Shown here: in pieces, positions 14,978 to 42,379 of the stretch
How positions within the stretch are numbered: the first letter of the stretch is position 1
Layout of the letters: the number at the start of each line of letters is the position of its first letter
IMG/VR virus record: IMGVR_UViG_3300024259_000006
Location: 1-42,379 of that record
DNA length: 42,379 bases
From: a virus
Strand: one strand, 5' to 3'
Notes under the pieces: generated by a model
Seen by the model: only the letters and a program-made list of their open reading frames with translations
The model's database searches: none
Told to the model about the DNA's origin: nothing
Position numbers and translations under genes: made by a program

Positions 14978-15008
14978 GGTCCCTAGGCTGTCCCTAGGGG
15001 CCTTTTTT
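14978..15008 (+). terminator. intrinsic terminator of the 115-aa gene
   Basis: Stem GGTCCCTAGG with CCTAGGGGCC (10 pairs, one T-G), loop CTGTC, then TTTTTT. Ends the rightward single-gene unit. Confidence 0.88.
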
Positions 15009-15034
15009 ATTGCCCATATGTGCAGAAACAAAGA

Positions 15035-15070
15035 AAGCCCCCTAACCTAAATGGCTAGGAGGCTTTTCTT
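15035..15070 (-). terminator. bidirectional terminator between converging units
   Basis: Stem AAGCCCCCTAACC (15035-15047) with GGCTAGGAGGCTT (15053-15065), two wobble pairs, T-rich on both strands (TTTTCTT rightward, TTTCTTTG leftward). It closes the leftward small-gene cluster and backs up the terminator at 14978-15008. Confidence 0.75.
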
Positions 15071-28817: not shown

Positions 28818-28832
28818 GAAAAGGAAAAGGTG

Positions 28833-29906
28833 ATGATTAGGAGATGTTGGAAAGGATTCTTTCTTAAGGAAGAAGGGGATACTACCTTCTGTAAGTTCTC
28901 TGGGAAGTATATAGATCCCGCTGAGTGTCTTACTTGTAAGAGTTCTGTGGGGTTTATTAGAACTGAGGATATTAAGGCTGATTCCTCTAAGCCTACAGTT
29001 GTCTTTGTGTGCGATAGACCCGGGTGGACCTTTGATTTAGTTTCTAATAACATTGCTAAAGCTATCTCTTCCTTTTGTACGGTTAAGATTATTTGTCAGA
29101 CAGACCCTATGTTTATTCGGGATCTTCAGCAAGAAGCTGATCTCTGGTTCTTTCATAATATCCTCCCCGCTGAGACAGCTCAGAAGGATAATTATATTGT
29201 CAAGATAGCTGGGCAGAGAAGTCTTGATATGTACCTTAAGAAGGGTGGGTATGGTAGGGAAGCACTTAGGACTGTTCTTGATGGTAGGCATGTTGTAGCT
29301 CTTTCCGCGGGTTTAGCTTCTCAAGTAGAAGACCTAGCCGAGAGTGTTACTATCATCCCTAATGGTCTTGATATTGATACCTTTAAGAGAACTAGGAAAA
29401 CAGAGATAGCTCCCTTTACTATAGGATTCGCTGGGAATATCACAGGAGTTAAGAAGCTAGCTTATAAGGGTTTCCCTTATGTTTCTATTATCTGTGATGA
29501 AGAGAATATAAAGCTACGTCCAGCTATCTACAACGAGAGAACTAATAAGCCTACTGTTACTTATAACGAGATGCCGAGATTTTATAATAACATCTCTTGC
29601 CTTGTTCATCCTTCTGTTGGGGAAGGGAGTAGTAACGTAATCATGGAAGCCCTAGCTTCAGGGACTCCAGTTATTACCACTAAGGTTGGGTACCACGGTG
29701 AGATGCTGAAGAGTTTTAAGAATGTTATCTTTATCAAACGTTCCCTAGAGGAGATAAGGGGAGCAGTTAAGTTCCTAGCTAATAACCCTAAGATAGCTCG
29801 AAGTATTGGTGATGCTGGTAGAAAGTTTGCGGAGAAGCATCATAACCTACATAAGCTAACCCCACTCTGGAAGAATGTTATTCTAACTGCCTTGGAGGAC
29901 AACTAA
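28833..29906 (+). CDS. GT4-type glycosyltransferase with N-terminal Cys module (357 aa)
   Basis: Transfers a sugar from a nucleotide donor with retention. Two-lobed GT-B fold: VTIIPNGLDIDTFK (about 172-185), IGFAGNITG, and the donor site HPSVGEGSSNVIMEALASG with E264 and E272 (E-x7-E). The first 40 residues form a separate module: C5, C20, C32 and C35, with RCWKGFFLK and FCKFSGK. The same module starts the glycosyltransferase at 31502. Start at ATG 28833 with AAGGTG upstream. Confidence 0.82.
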   Translation: MIRRCWKGFFLKEEGDTTFCKFSGKYIDPAECLTCKSSVGFIRTEDIKADSSKPTVVFVCDRPGWTFDLVSNNIAKAISSFCTVKIICQTDPMFIRDLQQEADLWFFHNILPAETAQKDNYIVKIAGQRSLDMYLKKGGYGREALRTVLDGRHVVALSAGLASQVEDLAESVTIIPNGLDIDTFKRTRKTEIAPFTIGFAGNITGVKKLAYKGFPYVSIICDEENIKLRPAIYNERTNKPTVTYNEMPRFYNNISCLVHPSVGEGSSNVIMEALASGTPVITTKVGYHGEMLKSFKNVIFIKRSLEEIRGAVKFLANNPKIARSIGDAGRKFAEKHHNLHKLTPLWKNVILTALEDN

Positions 29907-31318
29907 TGAAACTCTCAGTCCTTGTCCTCTCTTGTGAACGTGTTAGAGCTATGCAGCTTATTACTAAGAGGTTGTATGAGTTAGCTCCCTTTGAAGTTAT
30001 TATTATGGATAACTCTATCCGGGAAGTAGCTAAGGAATCAGTTAGGGTTCTTGCTAATAAGTATGGCTTTAAGGTTATTCAAGAAGAGCATACTCCCTTT
30101 AATTTGTCTGGTATGCGGAACCTTGGGATAGAAGCAGCTACTGGTGATGTACTTGTTTTCCTGGACTCAGATATAGTCCCCATTAATGATGACTTCCTTG
30201 AGAAGATAGAGGAGTTTCATAAGCATAACAAGAAGCTACTTATCCACGCTAGGTATAAGGGTGGGAAAGATACAGCTAGGCTTACATATGTAGCTGAGAA
30301 GCCAACTATCTTTGATAAGCATAGGATTTATAGCATAGAGAAGGGTAGACCCTGGAGAGCATCCTCTGGTGGGAATTGCTCTATAAGAAAAGATATACTT
30401 GGTGATGTTAGATTTGATACAAGATATACTGGAGGTTGGGGTTGGGAAGATGCTGACTTTACGCGGCAACTCTGGGATAAGAATATTGATATTGTCTTTG
30501 ATCCAACTATCTGTGCTAAGCATATAGAGCATCCTATTGTTAAGACAAATGCTGCTAGTAACTACGAGAAGTTTTGGGAGAAGTGGAATCCTGAGACCTT
30601 TACGAGATTCCAAGAGCTAATAGTCAGGAAGAACCTTCCTTCCCCTAGACCTGAGCTGGGGAGATACTTTAAGCATTTTGAGCAGGACTTTCACTCTGAG
30701 AAGAGAGTACTTGATATAGGCTGTGGTAAAGGACTTTTTTCGCATTATATCTCCTCTAAGTATGGGTGTGAAGTTACAGCACTTGATACGTATGCTGCTA
30801 ATGGGAATAGACCAGAGGATCTTGATGTTAATGAAGAATTCAAGTCCTTCACAAAGGATGGAGTTAATATAGTAACTGGGGATATTCGAGAGTATAAGAA
30901 TGACTATCCTTTTGATGTTATCTTTGCTCGGATTTCCATGCATCATATTATTCATACTACTCAGAGATTAGGTCCAGAAGCCAAGTGTTGGGAAGATCTT
31001 GTTGCTGTCTTTACTAAGATATACAAACTCCTCAAGGATAAGGGAACCTTTTATATCATCGATGTTCTCCCTGTTCCTGAGAAGAATGTGCATTACGCTA
31101 GGAATATGGCTAATGGTGTAAAGCCTGGGAGTAAACATACTCCACAAGAGTGGATGAGGGGACTCTTAGCTGCGGGGTTTGAGAACTTTGAAACCAGACA
31201 TATCTGGCCTTCTAAGAGTAGGTATCCTGAGCAGAGTAAGGCTATGAGTATTAAGAATAGGATGGATAAGTTTGGGTATAAGTACATCATGCAAGTTAGA
31301 AAGGGTATTCATGTCTGA
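29906..31318 (+). CDS. GT2 glycosyltransferase fused to SAM methyltransferase (470 aa)
   Basis: Residues about 1-225 are a GT-A glycosyltransferase: SVLVLSCERV, FNLSGMRNLGIEAATGD, DSD at 87-89 (metal and donor binding), and GGWGWEDADF (about 176-185) with the acidic pair. Residues about 250-470 are a class I methyltransferase with motif I VLDIGCGKG (268-276) and IIDVLPVPEK. The enzyme may add a sugar and methylate it or the chain end, a common way to cap or control glycan length. Overlaps the GT4 gene at TAATGA and has no Cys module of its own. Confidence 0.85.
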   Translation: MKLSVLVLSCERVRAMQLITKRLYELAPFEVIIMDNSIREVAKESVRVLANKYGFKVIQEEHTPFNLSGMRNLGIEAATGDVLVFLDSDIVPINDDFLEKIEEFHKHNKKLLIHARYKGGKDTARLTYVAEKPTIFDKHRIYSIEKGRPWRASSGGNCSIRKDILGDVRFDTRYTGGWGWEDADFTRQLWDKNIDIVFDPTICAKHIEHPIVKTNAASNYEKFWEKWNPETFTRFQELIVRKNLPSPRPELGRYFKHFEQDFHSEKRVLDIGCGKGLFSHYISSKYGCEVTALDTYAANGNRPEDLDVNEEFKSFTKDGVNIVTGDIREYKNDYPFDVIFARISMHHIIHTTQRLGPEAKCWEDLVAVFTKIYKLLKDKGTFYIIDVLPVPEKNVHYARNMANGVKPGSKHTPQEWMRGLLAAGFENFETRHIWPSKSRYPEQSKAMSIKNRMDKFGYKYIMQVRKGIHV

Positions 31319-36762: not shown

Positions 36763-37707
36763 ATGGCTGTTATTAATCTACAACCTGAACCTACTGTTGG
36801 CTCTCAGATAGGCTCTGCTCTTGGTGCGGGACTTCAAGGCTTCGCTGCTGGGAAGCAAAGAGCTAAGCAGAATAAACTTCAACAGGATCAGTTTGATCTC
36901 TTGAGGAAGAATACCGAAGATCAGATTAAGACTAGAGAGCAAGAAAGAAAGATTCAACTTGAGAGGAATACTCTTAACATTATAAAGATCATGGCAGATA
37001 ATGCTAATGGTCAACGTCCTGGTATGGATTTCTTTAATGATGCTGTTAAGAGTGTTTCATTCTTTAAGCGTCGTGAGGATGCTGCTCTTTACTTTGAGAA
37101 TGCTCAGAAGCTAAAGGCGCAGGAAGCTGATAATAAAGTCCTTATGGCTCAAAGACTTGCTGAAGCTACAGCTAAAGGTAGAGCTAGTGGGACTCCTAAG
37201 ACGAAAGAGGAAACTACTGAAGGAATTTCCCCACTTAATCTTAGTAGACTCTTGACAGCTAGAGCTAAGGCTGCTGAACGTAAGGATGAAGTTGGGCAAG
37301 ATATTAGTTTTGCTGAAGGTGTGGCTAATGTTTTTCTTCCTGAATCCCTAGAGTTTCGTGGTCCAAGATCTAAAGCCAGCTCTAAAGAAGAAGCTGCTAT
37401 TGGTAAGCTAATCGCTAAGGGCTTGGCTAAACCTAATGCTGGGGAAGTTCGCGGACCTCTTAGACCTAAGGCTCTTACTGCTGAGGAAGTTAAAGCTCTT
37501 AATCTTGATATTCCTAAAATTAATAGGGAAAGACTTAACGTTGGAACACCTCAGAGAATCTCTGGCTTAACTCAAACTCCCAAGAAAACCACTAAGTCTC
37601 TTATCTCTTTCAAAGACCCTAGGACTAATAAGTGGCGAAAAGCTAACGTAACTCCTGAGCAACTTAAGAGACTTCAAGCTGAAGGTATTGAAGTAAGGAA
37701 TAATTAA
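36763..37707 (+). CDS. internal virion protein, medium (314 aa)
   Basis: Begins with a Gly-rich amphipathic helix (TVGSQIGSALGAGLQGFAAG), then a charged coiled coil (KQNKLQQDQFDLLRKNTEDQ) and a basic C-terminus (DPRTNKWRKANVTPEQLKR). Adjacent to two other ejection protein genes and ends at the ATG of the largest one. No enzymatic motif seen. Confidence 0.7.
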   Translation: MAVINLQPEPTVGSQIGSALGAGLQGFAAGKQRAKQNKLQQDQFDLLRKNTEDQIKTREQERKIQLERNTLNIIKIMADNANGQRPGMDFFNDAVKSVSFFKRREDAALYFENAQKLKAQEADNKVLMAQRLAEATAKGRASGTPKTKEETTEGISPLNLSRLLTARAKAAERKDEVGQDISFAEGVANVFLPESLEFRGPRSKASSKEEAAIGKLIAKGLAKPNAGEVRGPLRPKALTAEEVKALNLDIPKINRERLNVGTPQRISGLTQTPKKTTKSLISFKDPRTNKWRKANVTPEQLKRLQAEGIEVRNN

Positions 37708-40700
37708 TGTCCATTCTCGATGAACTAGAGATTGTCGAAGAACCTTCTAAGAAAACTTCTGTCCTGGATGAATTGGAGATTGTTGAGACTCCTGAAGTTC
37801 CTAAGGCTGCTCTTGTAGAAGGAGAGAGTATAGTTATCCAAGAGGATGATCCTACTCTTTTAACTCCAGAAGTAGAAACATTCCAAGAACCCCTCCCCAA
37901 GGATGATACATTTGATCCTCCAGAGGGGAGGTTTGGGAATAGAAATCCTAGAGAACTAGAACCCATCTTCAACTATGAAAGTGCTAGGGAACTCTCTGGC
38001 TTTAGGGGTTTCTCTGATGTAACTCTAGCTGAAGGTGGGCAAGCAGCTCAGGATCTTTGGATTGGTGCTGCTACTCTGCTAAATCTAGCTGGCTTTAAGA
38101 TTCCTGGAGCTATCTTAGGTGAGCTTGGGTATAAGATTCCAGAACCTACTACTACTCAAGGACAACTTATCAAGGGTGCAGCAGGAGCTGTTGGTACAGC
38201 TATTGGTCCTTTTGCTGCTGCTTCTAAGATAACTTCTGCTATCCCTAAAGCTATTCCTGTGCTTACTAATGTTCCAGCAGGAAGTAGACTTGGCGCAGCT
38301 ATTACGAATACCGCTAGCCATGCACTTAACTTCGCTATTGCAGATGCTATTGGTAGCGTAAATGCTGGACTTGCTGAGAGAACTCAAGGCTTTTATGAAG
38401 GTGCTAAGTCAGGTGGTATTCTCTCACTTAATCAATTCGTCCCAACTAAGGTAGCTAGAGGTGTAGCTACTTCCCTTGGAATGGGTGGTTATGCTTGGGC
38501 ACAAGGTGCTTCTCCTGAGGAGATAGCTTTTAATGGTGCTTTTGGTTGGCTTATTGGGAGTGGTTCTCCCTCTGCTACTGATACTTTTATAAAGGCTAGG
38601 ATAGCTAAGTCTGGTCTTCTTGAAGGTCTGGGTGGTAGAGATGGAATTGAATTACTTTCTCAAGCTGATGATATTCTAAAGACTATTAACAGCAGGAAGC
38701 TAAAGAGTGGCATGACTGCTGATGATGCTTGGGTAGTTATGGGAGGGACTAACCAGAAGGTGCAGAATAACATTAACTTCGAAGCTTATAAAGCTACTCC
38801 TGTAACTCCTAAAGCTATTAAGGCAGCTGGTTCTCTTAAGGCTCTTAAAACTAAGGCGTTGAAGAAGTGGAGACTTGAAAAGCTAGACTCCATGACCGAG
38901 GTGGTTAAGAATTTTATTCGCTCTCCTCTTTTTGAGGTTTCTGAGGATCTTTCTGTAATTTCTGTAAGGGATCTCTTCAAGCCTAAGTTGAATACTACTG
39001 GGCTCTCAAGGAAAGTTAATACTAAGCTTATCAGACAGACTCTAGAGAAGCTCCCTAATGCTCAGCTTAAGAAACTTGAGCTAGCTATTGCTGAGACTTA
39101 TGCTGCTCCTGCTCCGCAAGTTTTTCCCCTTAGCACGGAAAGAAATCCTAGACTCCTTAATCCAGGCTCTGTAGGTAAGAAGATGGTTAGAGCTACTATG
39201 GATGCTTGGGGTAATACTTTTGGTACTGGTCTAGCTTCTCTAGAAAGGGGACGTTTTGGGGAATTATTCCTAGATGAAGGTTCTCTTACTACTAACTTCT
39301 TTAGGAGTAGTACACAAGCTAGAGTAGAGCAATATCTACGCTATGAGTATCTCAGGAGAATCAAGCAGGTTATTGGTTCAGGTGAAGGTATCGCTAGGGA
39401 TGGTGCTTACTACATGGATGGTACTACTAGAGTGGAGTCTATCCCAGGGAGTACTATTCAAAAGAAGTTCTCTAGGAAAAAGCTAAACAACATGGTACAT
39501 AGTTTCCGTGATAAGGTAGCTATGTCTGAGCCTGAGTATAGGGCTTTAGCTTTACAGGTAACTGGTAAGGATTCTGCTAAGGATATGACCACTGCTGAGC
39601 TTGGTAAGTTTGCAGTTGAGTTGGGTAGAGTTGGTGGACTTGATGCTCCTGTTGGACTTACTAGGAATGTTAAGCGGGTTGATGATGCAGTTATTCTTCA
39701 GAAGTATGGTAGAGAAAAGCTTGATGCCCTTAAGCAACTAAGGAAGTATTATGACATTGAGCTAGATAGAATCAACGCAGTTAACAAGCATATCGGACAA
39801 CCTCAAATTCCTAGACGTCAAGATTACTTCACTCATACAATGGAGGTTTTGAAGAAGAATCCCCTTACTGAGCCTATTCTAGCTGAGTCTGTGAAGAGAA
39901 ATCCTGTTAGGGACTTCCCTTATGGTAAACCCAGAACTGGACAGAGTGGTTGGATTCCTAATCTCTGGGCAGGCGTAGAGTCCTATATGGTCGCTGCTAC
40001 TACCTATGGGAATAATAGCTCCATCATAAGTGCTGAGAGACAACTCGCTTTCCTTAAGAAGATGCAGAACTACAGAGCTGCCCTTGCTAAGAAGGGTAAG
40101 ACTCTTCCTGAACCTTATGCTCAGTATCAGGATTGGGACTTACATAGCATGCAGAATACTCTTAGTACTTATCTTAGGACTTATACTAACACAAAGGGAA
40201 AAGCTAATACCCTAGGTATGCAGTTCCTTGATGGTTTTAATGGTGCTGTGAAGAAAGCTGTAGAGAGAATCCCCGGAATCAAGAATAAGCCTGAGGTAGC
40301 TAAGAGATTCCAGATTGAGAATCATCAGCAACTAGTGAATAGCTTTATCTCTGTGCACCACGCTGCTATGCTAGGTCTTAGGGCTGATGTAGCTATAAGG
40401 AATGCAGCTCAGCCTATTCTTACTATGCTATACACAAGCCCTAGGGATCTTATCAAAGCTATCGCTACTAGCAAGACAAAAGCGGGTAGAGCTAGACAAG
40501 CTAAGAATGAAGTTCTCTTCGGGAGAGAAAGCACCTATGCTGAAATTGCCGCTGAGAATACTAGTCCTATGGCGGGAGAGTTACTTAATAAGTCTCTCTT
40601 CTTACATAGGGGTGCTGATAAGCATAATGTGCAGGTTTCTTTTGAAGCTGGTTATCAATGGGCTAAGAGAACAAAGGGACTTGGTGAAGCTGATGCTCTT

Positions 40701-41132
40701 AAGTGGGCTAATAGGATAGCTGCTAAGACGCAGTTTATCTACGGACAAAGTAATCGCGGACCTCTTTCAGATTTCTTTGGAACTTCTAGATCACTTGGTA
40801 GAGTAGCTTCTATCTACACTAGCTGGCCTAGGAACTTTGCAGAAGCTATGATTACTTCTGCACAAATGGATGGAGGGAAGAAGCTTGGAAAGTATATGGT
40901 AGCTGCTACTCTAGCTGGTTATGCTGGGAAATACTATGGAGTAAACGTAGACGCTTATACAGGCATGGAAGCACTTGAAAGTCTCCCAGGAATAACTACA
41001 TTCCAAGAGCCTGTTGTCCTCACTTCCCCTATCCCTATACCCCTAGCTGCAAAAGAACTCAAGCAACTCTTAGATGGTGATAAAGAACTAGCAGATCTTT
41101 TCTTTTACTTGGATAAGGACAAACTGAAATGA
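37707..41132 (+). CDS. internal virion protein, large (1141 aa)
   Basis: The largest gene, last of the ejection cluster. The N-terminus has a tandem motif (SILDELEIVEEP, then SVLDELEIVETP) within the first 30 residues, an acidic linker, and Gly/Ala-rich membrane-like stretches (AAGAVGTAIGPFAAASKI). The rest is helical and lacks recognisable transglycosylase or polymerase motifs. By analogy it is stored in the capsid and ejected with the DNA. Confidence 0.75.
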   Translation: MSILDELEIVEEPSKKTSVLDELEIVETPEVPKAALVEGESIVIQEDDPTLLTPEVETFQEPLPKDDTFDPPEGRFGNRNPRELEPIFNYESARELSGFRGFSDVTLAEGGQAAQDLWIGAATLLNLAGFKIPGAILGELGYKIPEPTTTQGQLIKGAAGAVGTAIGPFAAASKITSAIPKAIPVLTNVPAGSRLGAAITNTASHALNFAIADAIGSVNAGLAERTQGFYEGAKSGGILSLNQFVPTKVARGVATSLGMGGYAWAQGASPEEIAFNGAFGWLIGSGSPSATDTFIKARIAKSGLLEGLGGRDGIELLSQADDILKTINSRKLKSGMTADDAWVVMGGTNQKVQNNINFEAYKATPVTPKAIKAAGSLKALKTKALKKWRLEKLDSMTEVVKNFIRSPLFEVSEDLSVISVRDLFKPKLNTTGLSRKVNTKLIRQTLEKLPNAQLKKLELAIAETYAAPAPQVFPLSTERNPRLLNPGSVGKKMVRATMDAWGNTFGTGLASLERGRFGELFLDEGSLTTNFFRSSTQARVEQYLRYEYLRRIKQVIGSGEGIARDGAYYMDGTTRVESIPGSTIQKKFSRKKLNNMVHSFRDKVAMSEPEYRALALQVTGKDSAKDMTTAELGKFAVELGRVGGLDAPVGLTRNVKRVDDAVILQKYGREKLDALKQLRKYYDIELDRINAVNKHIGQPQIPRRQDYFTHTMEVLKKNPLTEPILAESVKRNPVRDFPYGKPRTGQSGWIPNLWAGVESYMVAATTYGNNSSIISAERQLAFLKKMQNYRAALAKKGKTLPEPYAQYQDWDLHSMQNTLSTYLRTYTNTKGKANTLGMQFLDGFNGAVKKAVERIPGIKNKPEVAKRFQIENHQQLVNSFISVHHAAMLGLRADVAIRNAAQPILTMLYTSPRDLIKAIATSKTKAGRARQAKNEVLFGRESTYAEIAAENTSPMAGELLNKSLFLHRGADKHNVQVSFEAGYQWAKRTKGLGEADALKWANRIAAKTQFIYGQSNRGPLSDFFGTSRSLGRVASIYTSWPRNFAEAMITSAQMDGGKKLGKYMVAATLAGYAGKYYGVNVDAYTGMEALESLPGITTFQEPVVLTSPIPIPLAAKELKQLLDGDKELADLFFYLDKDKLK

Positions 41133-42103
41133 AGATCCTCCTACTAAGCGAAGAAGGCGAGCTTCTCTCCCTTGGTATGCGTCTTAAGAAACACGACGTA
41201 GCGATGTATATTGATAACTCTCTCTTCTCCCTCAGGGGTAAGGGGATTCTTCCTATTGAGAGTTCTCCAGATGTTACCCTCTCATATAAGAGGAAGAGAT
41301 ACTCTAGATACTTAGCGGATCTCCTACATAAATATACTCCTGAGTTAGTTATCCTAGAGAAAGCCTTTGGCTACCTAGAGAAGCAGATAAAGAAGGCAGG
41401 TATCCAAACTTGGGGAGCTAATGAATGGAGTATGCTACTCAATGGTAATGCTGAGTATAGAGAAGAGATAAAGAAGCTACTCCCCCTAGAGGACTTTAAT
41501 GGGGATGCTTATGGCTTTCTTTGGAATGGAGAGCCTTCCCTTCTGCATACTATAGAGCTAACTCCCGGTTTCATGCCAGGGAATGTCGGCCCTCAAGTCA
41601 TAAGCTCCGTAAAAGTAGACATAAAAAAAGAGCATGGAGAAGAAAAACTCTCCATGCTCTATGCGCTACTACGGAAGAATGATTATAAGGGATTTGTGTA
41701 TGTTAATAAGCGGGATCTTTTTCTTGGGTATGATTACTCTTTGGCTTCTTCGCTAACTGAGAAAGTAGTAGACCCAATTCATATGCTACTACCCCAAAAC
41801 GGTAGCCAGCTTCTGCATCATACTGGTACAGCCAAGTCTTTATTGCTTTCGCTATCTCCTTACCCGTCGGGTCTTTTCTCTCCTTCTCTTCTTCCTGTTG
41901 AACTTTCTCCTGAGATGTTGAAGCATCTTTCTCTTCTAGATATTGCTCAAGATCAAGGAGCTTTTCATTTAGGCGTGACAAATGGCCTGCTTGGTTATAT
42001 AACAACGTATGGATCTTACGGAGAATTGAGTCGCCGTCTCCAGAGAACTGCAAAGAATCTGTTAACTCTTGTAGCATCTTTGCAATATCGAATAGATATT
42101 TAA
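41129..42103 (+). CDS. ATP-grasp/PurD-like protein, C-terminal part overlapping an opposite-strand gene (324 aa)
   Basis: Residues about 1-195 resemble a short glycinamide ribonucleotide synthetase-like ATP-grasp protein: MKILLLSEEGELL, GKGILP (37-42), PELVILEKAFGYLEKQIKKA, GIQTWGANEWSMLLNG then EYREE, PGNVGPQV, and NDYKGFVYVN. The bulk of the usual ATP-grasp core is missing or very short. From about residue 192 the sequence is Leu/Ser/Pro-rich and lies exactly antisense to the 148-aa early gene, so this tail may be read-through without function. Start overlaps the end of the 1141-aa gene by ATGA. Such proteins ligate carboxylates to amines; the substrate is unknown. Confidence 0.5.
   Translation: MKILLLSEEGELLSLGMRLKKHDVAMYIDNSLFSLRGKGILPIESSPDVTLSYKRKRYSRYLADLLHKYTPELVILEKAFGYLEKQIKKAGIQTWGANEWSMLLNGNAEYREEIKKLLPLEDFNGDAYGFLWNGEPSLLHTIELTPGFMPGNVGPQVISSVKVDIKKEHGEEKLSMLYALLRKNDYKGFVYVNKRDLFLGYDYSLASSLTEKVVDPIHMLLPQNGSQLLHHTGTAKSLLLSLSPYPSGLFSPSLLPVELSPEMLKHLSLLDIAQDQGAFHLGVTNGLLGYITTYGSYGELSRRLQRTAKNLLTLVASLQYRIDI
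41623..41660 (-). terminator. strong intrinsic terminator of the leftward early operon
   Basis: Perfect 12-bp stem AGAGCATGGAGA/TCTCCATGCTCT with an 8-base loop (read leftward GTTTTTCT), followed on the leftward strand by TTTTTTT (A-run at 41623-41629). It lies 43 bp after the stop of the 148-aa gene. No T-run follows on the rightward strand. It sits inside the rightward ATP-grasp-like reading frame. Confidence 0.9.
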
Positions 42104-42149
42104 TAAGTACTATAGTGCATAAGCCTATAAGTAGTGCAAGGATATTCAT
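41703..42149 (-). CDS. membrane-anchored coiled-coil protein, last gene of the leftward operon (148 aa)
   Basis: One N-terminal membrane segment (MNILALLIGLCTIVLIKYLF), then coiled coil (LSRLNEKLLDLEQYLEEK, VQQEEEKERKDP) and a Tyr/Leu-rich C-terminal part. The ATG overlaps the upstream TGA (ATGA) and the gene is followed by a strong terminator, so it is very likely real despite being antisense to the end of the ATP-grasp-like frame. Topology recalls spanins or superinfection-exclusion proteins, but neither is demonstrated. Confidence 0.75.
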   Translation of the reverse strand: MNILALLIGLCTIVLIKYLFDIAKMLQELTDSLQFSGDGDSILRKIHTLLYNQAGHLSRLNEKLLDLEQYLEEKDASTSQEKVQQEEEKERKDPTGKEIAKAIKTWLYQYDAEAGYRFGVVAYELGLLLSQLAKKPKSNHTQEKDPAY

Positions 42150-42346
42150 CCTCTCCTCCTATTTCTATACGCCTTAAGAACAGGAATAGTCTCCGCAGGA
42201 TACTCTCCATCCTTCTCCGTAAAAGCATCCTCCATCTTATGAAAGTCCTTACCCCTTTCCTTTATCCAACACTTCAGACAGTAAAAGGGATGCCCAAGTC
42301 CACCACATCCTCCAGCACAAGGGGCATACTTTGGTTCTTCTTTCAT
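42146..42346 (-). CDS. small zinc-ribbon-like protein spanning the circular junction (66 aa)
   Basis: Unrecognised 66-aa protein. The N-terminal half has cysteines in the arrangement CAGGCGG followed by C-L-K-C, which suggests a small metal-binding knuckle; the C-terminus is basic (RNRRRG). Its ATG overlaps the stop of the upstream gene (ATGA, seen in the window's left copy at 91-94) and its own TGA overlaps the ATG of the next gene at 42149. It is therefore translationally coupled on both sides within the leftward early operon. The same start region appears a second time at 1-94 because of the terminal repeat. Function unknown. Confidence 0.75.
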   Translation of the reverse strand: MKEEPKYAPCAGGCGGLGHPFYCLKCWIKERGKDFHKMEDAFTEKDGEYPAETIPVLKAYRNRRRG

Positions 42347-42379
42347 TCCACATTCTCCCCATAAGGATCTTTCCTAGAT
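42253..42379. repeat. 127-bp direct terminal repeat, right copy
   Basis: Second copy of the first 127 bases of the window. It holds the start codon and first codons of the junction-spanning leftward gene and the last codons of the gene upstream of it. Confidence 0.95.

Follow-up and report, generated by a model that had tools for sequence, protein, structure and literature searches.

The last late gene of this phage genome and the putative last gene of its leftward early operon share 401 bp on opposite strands, and both frames stay open over this stretch far beyond chance. The overlap is best explained by genuine antisense overprinting, in which a young leftward gene has probably been added over the end of an old rightward gene. 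The window, i.e. the whole stretch of DNA analysed, is the entire IMG/VR virus record IMGVR_UViG_3300024259_000006 with 42,379 bp. The two ORFs and their shared part lie where an earlier note on this sequence had placed them, and the locus is composed as follows (coordinates, strand, feature).

37707..41132, plus strand: upstream late gene, 1141 aa, whose stop overlaps the start of the rightward gene (ORF coordinates)
41129..42103, plus strand: last late gene (rightward gene), 324-aa degenerate PurD/GAR-synthetase-type ATP-grasp protein without the ATP-binding lobe (full-length homologues, PurD model matches)
41629..41660, minus strand: intrinsic terminator, leftward only, within the rightward codons KEHGEEKLSMLY (12-bp perfect stem and TTTTTTT)
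41703..42103, both strands: antisense overlap, 401 bp (codon position 1 opposite position 1, position 2 opposite position 3)
41703..42149, minus strand: putative last gene of the leftward early operon, 148-aa orphan with a predicted membrane segment at residues 2-20, followed by a charged region (start signals, stop avoidance)
42146..42346, minus strand: upstream leftward gene, 66 aa, cysteine-rich, whose stop overlaps the start of the 148-aa gene (ORF coordinates)

The gene content of the record (terminase, portal, major head protein, P22-like stabilisation protein and family A DNA polymerase) identifies it as a podovirus-like tailed phage. Its kin in GenBank are only distant, with best matches of about 20-30% identity, and queries with the terminase and the capsid protein likewise returned distant kin only. 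The first 127 bp are repeated exactly and in direct orientation at the end (1-127 = 42253-42379), so that the record probably represents a closed circle of 42,252 bp. As its length of 127 bp coincides with a word size often used in assembly, this is a putative terminal repeat. The late genes occupy 17.6 kb to 42.1 kb in rightward orientation, and the early genes extend leftward, starting at about 14.2 kb, across the circle junction to 41.7 kb, where the labels early and late are assigned from gene content. The structural module also contains glycosyltransferase-like and methyltransferase/glycosyltransferase-like genes (28830-31318).

Direct searches with the 324-aa protein and the 148-aa ORF (Pfam, PHROGs, NCBIfam, PDB sequences, phage tblastn and IMG/VR peptide scans) returned nothing, and a comparison of E. 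coli PurD with the 324-aa protein gave nothing useful. Near kin were reached with an IMG/VR scan using a DNA-polymerase alignment, followed by searches inside the whole records found. In this way homologues of the 324-aa protein were detected in 9 of 26 related viral records, with 22-27% identity and E values down to 1e-22. The earlier note had placed the end of the family similarity near residue 195, where the overlap begins, but several of the homologue alignments span residues 1-323/324. The overlapped part contains at least 15 residues that are invariant in the alignment, among them L209, E211, P246, H266, D271, G286, G295, E299, R303, T307, L311, Q319, Y320, R321 and D323, and it ends with QYRxD. 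Identity to the relatives is 27.1% in the overlapped residues 192-324 versus 23.4% in the remainder, and the rightward protein keeps 18 of 26 conserved columns in the overlap and 13 of 25 outside it. A degradation of the rightward C-terminus by overprinting was also considered, but this idea was rejected, since conservation is no lower in the overlapped part than elsewhere in the protein.

The last residues of the rightward protein resembled by eye what we took to be a PurD tail, and E. coli PurD was therefore used to find phage PurD-like proteins. This search revealed an unannotated 443-aa PurD-like ATP-grasp ORF in MW202796.1 (a phage from Manatee Spring), located at 42140-43471 directly after annotated structural genes, and relatives of this protein on about 280 IMG/VR contigs. 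Two of the lobe-bearing homologues, L195 (427 aa) and L197 (416 aa), match both GARS_A and GARS_C above the Pfam cut-offs, and the closer kin of the window protein (341-370 aa) keep GARS_C and have no GARS_A match. For GARS_C, relatives L180 and L198 scored 35.9 bits against a cut-off of 34.8, and homologues pass or approach this cut-off. The 324-aa protein itself has no Pfam match; its GARS_C domain is evident from the Pfam scores of the homologues, the column-by-column alignment and the model matches, and its residues 1-120 align with the family over the N-terminal pre-ATP-grasp domain. What it does not contain is the ATP-binding lobe (GARS_A, with the catalytic lysine and the metal-binding acids): about 55-65 residues with the KPSGN lobe, present in L195, L197 and MW202796, are missing, and the metal motif LEFTARFGYD has become LFLGYDYSLA. 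The description of the protein as ATP-grasp-like was thus correct for its ancestry, which is of the PurD type, but the ATP-binding lobe has been lost in this subfamily. Because of this loss, GAR synthetase activity of the 324-aa protein is unlikely, and we regard it as probably a degenerate ATP-grasp protein that is non-enzymatic or altered in role. The 341-370 aa phage proteins of L190-L193, L196 and L198, with PurD N- and C-terminal domains and no ATP-binding lobe, represent a degenerate ATP-grasp lineage.

Structure prediction agreed with this assignment. The AlphaFold model built with a 14-sequence alignment had a pTM of 0.78 and a mean pLDDT of 72, with values of about 80-90 over most of the N-terminal domain (61-70 at residues 41-60), 54-75 over most of the overlapped part and 44 at the last few residues; without the alignment pLDDT was 32. 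All best PDB matches of the model in Foldseek were GAR synthetases (E 6.7e-12), where it has to be considered that the alignment included lobe-bearing relatives and the model is thus not independent of homology. The family profile matched PurD structures with an E value of 3.6e-31.

The evidence for the leftward gene is of a different kind. Its start overlaps the 66-aa gene in an ATGA and is preceded by a GGAGG ribosome site GGAGGAGAGG, its N-terminus is hydrophobic (Kyte-Doolittle 2.23 across residues 2-20), and its stop is followed after 43 bp by the terminator, so that the coupled start, membrane segment and terminator described in the earlier note are all present. The start of the rightward gene overlaps the stop of the 1141-aa gene in an ATGA and has AAGGA 9 nt ahead. 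When the rightward protein was held fixed and its codons were drawn by late usage, 9.3 +/- 2.0 leftward stops were expected (minimum 3 in 5,000 draws) and none was observed; with either protein fixed and the codon usage of the phage itself, 8-9 stops were expected in the opposite frame, again with none observed. The leftward frame was open in 0-1 of 20,000 resamplings, a result to be read as that of a test on one genome picked from many scanned. Among 10,001 other codons the longest stop-free antisense run in the same phase was 79 codons, compared to 131 here. Inside the rightward gene, this antisense phase is interrupted by 13 stops over the first 191 codons, whereas the last 131 codons are free of them (Fisher p 0.001). 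In 11 relatives, 2-14 stops occur in this phase over the homologous stretch.

Coding scores of both overlapping frames were higher than those of antisense controls. The leftward codon score is ordinary, however, once only stop-free frames are compared (p 0.14), and it was therefore dropped as independent evidence. Likewise, the composition of the leftward protein is what the T-rich third positions of the rightward gene would yield, given a stop-free frame. Searches with the 148-aa protein covered phages, IMG/VR, 30 related records and 84,980 genomes and revealed no homologue, where the single-protein scans reach close relatives only; such a restricted distribution is that of a younger frame. 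Both frames are under constraint, the rightward one as judged from its homologues and the leftward one from its avoidance of stops. Taken together, there is a good chance, in our view roughly four in five, that the leftward gene is translated and functional. The earlier note had ranked it as the surer of the two genes, and this order has to be reversed: the rightward C-terminus is better proven, and the leftward gene rests on local signals and stop avoidance.

The terminator is a hairpin at 41660-41629 with a perfect 12-bp stem followed by seven T, which are present on the minus strand alone. Genome-wide, we detected three strong terminators (rightward 14978-15002, leftward 15066-15034 and leftward 41660-41629), and once 15.0 kb is passed on the circular map, the last of these is the only leftward one. 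To meet it, the leftward transcript must reach 474 bp into the late gene. No comparable embedded hairpin was found in the nine relatives scanned. A strong rightward terminator was found neither from 17.6 kb to the record end nor onward round the circle until about 15.0 kb, in a pattern scan that misses other terminator types. The facing strong terminators at 14978-15066 mark another convergent transcription boundary.

In the relatives, the overlap between the convergent early gene and the ATP-grasp gene measures 13 (L190), 13 (L191), 18 (L192), 44 (L195) and 9 bp (L196), as taken from ORF lists, with the small convergent gene clearly common to L190-L192. The tail-to-tail contact is thus probably old and the 401-bp overlap derived. 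The last leftward gene of the relatives encodes a protein different from the 148-aa orphan, and the possibility that the orphan is an extended form of their small convergent gene was rejected because no similarity was found. The leftward gene begins shortly past the rightward stop, in a region that in the relatives still codes for the end of the ATP-grasp protein. For the neighbouring 66-aa cysteine-rich protein no homologue was found in 13 related records. In L181, L183 and L198, small membrane-protein and lipobox ORFs, holin-/spanin-like by eye, follow the late-strand ATP-grasp gene; in the window, no such ORF was recognised at the corresponding place.

Other explanations of the overlap were weighed against this evidence. 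The earlier note had left open whether the two genes are overprinted or whether an old and real leftward gene is overrun by a late gene that lost its stop, with everything after about residue 195 being a meaningless shadow. The overlapped rightward sequence is indeed Leu/Ser-rich and pyrimidine-rich, as an antisense shadow would be. However, the C-terminal 133 residues are conserved as protein in the relatives, which do not keep the leftward gene, and Pfam recognises GARS_C at the same place in them. The earlier note had named such a pattern of conservation as a refutation, and for the shadow reading it is one. With the leftward protein fixed, stop-free synonymous resampling matched 7.6 +/- 2.0 of the 26 conserved columns, at most 15 in about 2,900 draws; the observed 18 exceed every resampling, and the rightward similarity is thus not a shadow of the leftward gene. 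Furthermore, the rightward ORF ends at the YRxDI motif of the family (YRIDI here), and the proteins of the relatives continue for about 15-25 residues beyond it, so that the window ORF is shortened and not extended. A lost stop is therefore extremely improbable, and of the two possibilities it is overprinting that is supported.

A stronger competitor is that the rightward gene alone is coding and the leftward ORF has stayed open by chance, the operon ending in an untranslated 3' tail that reaches to the embedded terminator. The searches without a homologue, the amino-acid make-up expected of a shadow of the rightward gene once stops are excluded, and the relatives, whose last leftward gene is a different protein with only a short overlap, are all consistent with this. 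The number of stops expected, the resamplings and the control runs described above nevertheless argue against it, as do a strong ribosome site and an ATGA coupling exactly at the start and a terminator soon after the stop, and we consider a chance frame unlikely. It might also be possible that the overlap is mainly regulatory: antisense RNA from late rightward read-through would shut off the early operon in an excludon-like manner, and the leftward protein would be incidental. The head-on gene layout, the long stretch without a strong rightward terminator and the extension of the leftward transcript into the late gene fit such a role. But a leftward frame that stays open calls for a reason at the protein level, and terminators of other types could have escaped the pattern scans. 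As the main explanation it appears slightly less probable still than the chance frame, although it is compatible with overprinting, and silencing of the early operon by late read-through is speculative.

Overprinting thus remains the favoured reading and could work as follows. The rightward late gene is an old, conserved descendant of a PurD-type gene that is complete through its C-terminal GARS_C domain. Its ATP-binding lobe has been lost in the phage lineage, probably leaving an altered or non-enzymatic protein that is made together with the virion genes. A younger 148-aa leftward gene would then be kept open over the last 401 bp of the late gene, and a small membrane-anchored protein may be translated from it early, via the coupled start just past the rightward stop. 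The leftward transcript would end at the terminator embedded in the rightward coding sequence, and early and late messages would be separated in time. As to the origin, it is an even question whether overprinting arose on the C-terminal domain of the late gene, where convergent genes already overlapped slightly, with the terminator taken from the late gene and late transcription possibly silencing the early gene.

Gene finders usually drop one of two long antisense frames, and the frame that would be dropped here is probably real. The case can be compared with relatives that have a much shorter overlap of 9-44 bp. If the overprinting reading is true, the codons of the late gene carry two proteins and a terminator at once. 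In addition, phages carry a family of PurD-derived proteins that have lost the ATP-binding lobe and yet are conserved where the structural module ends, which points to a non-metabolic role for proteins that would otherwise pass as auxiliary metabolic genes.

With PurD/GAR synthetase (GARS_N, GARS_A, GARS_C) the window protein has in common the domain order and a C-terminal domain ending in YRxDI(G), and PurD structures are the first matches of both its AlphaFold model and the family profile. It differs in length, with 324 aa compared to about 430 in PurD, and in being without the ATP-binding lobe and the metal-binding acidic motif. The phage PurD-like ATP-grasp proteins (the 443-aa ORF of MW202796.1 and its about 280 IMG/VR relatives) are likewise located after the structural module on the late strand; those of the MW202796.1 type keep the ATP-binding lobe, whereas the nearest kin of the window protein (341-370 aa) are without it. 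Antisense genes with experimental support have been reported in bacteria, such as pop opposite ompA (PMC7103648) and laoB (PMC5810103). They are likewise long antisense ORFs on an established gene with restricted distribution, but they are fully embedded, whereas the pair described here is predicted from sequence and arranged tail-to-tail in a tailed phage. In a survey of Podoviridae, antisense overlaps of more than 50 nt were annotated in 21 of 347 reference genomes (PMC7017920). These belong to the same class of arrangement, but the survey is based on annotation, whereas the present pair is backed by homologues on one side and by the stop-avoidance test on the other. Among viral overlaps, antisense frames account for 6.6% (PMC8903798). 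Overlaps of the antisense kind are already known from phages, and this locus is a long, two-sided example of them.
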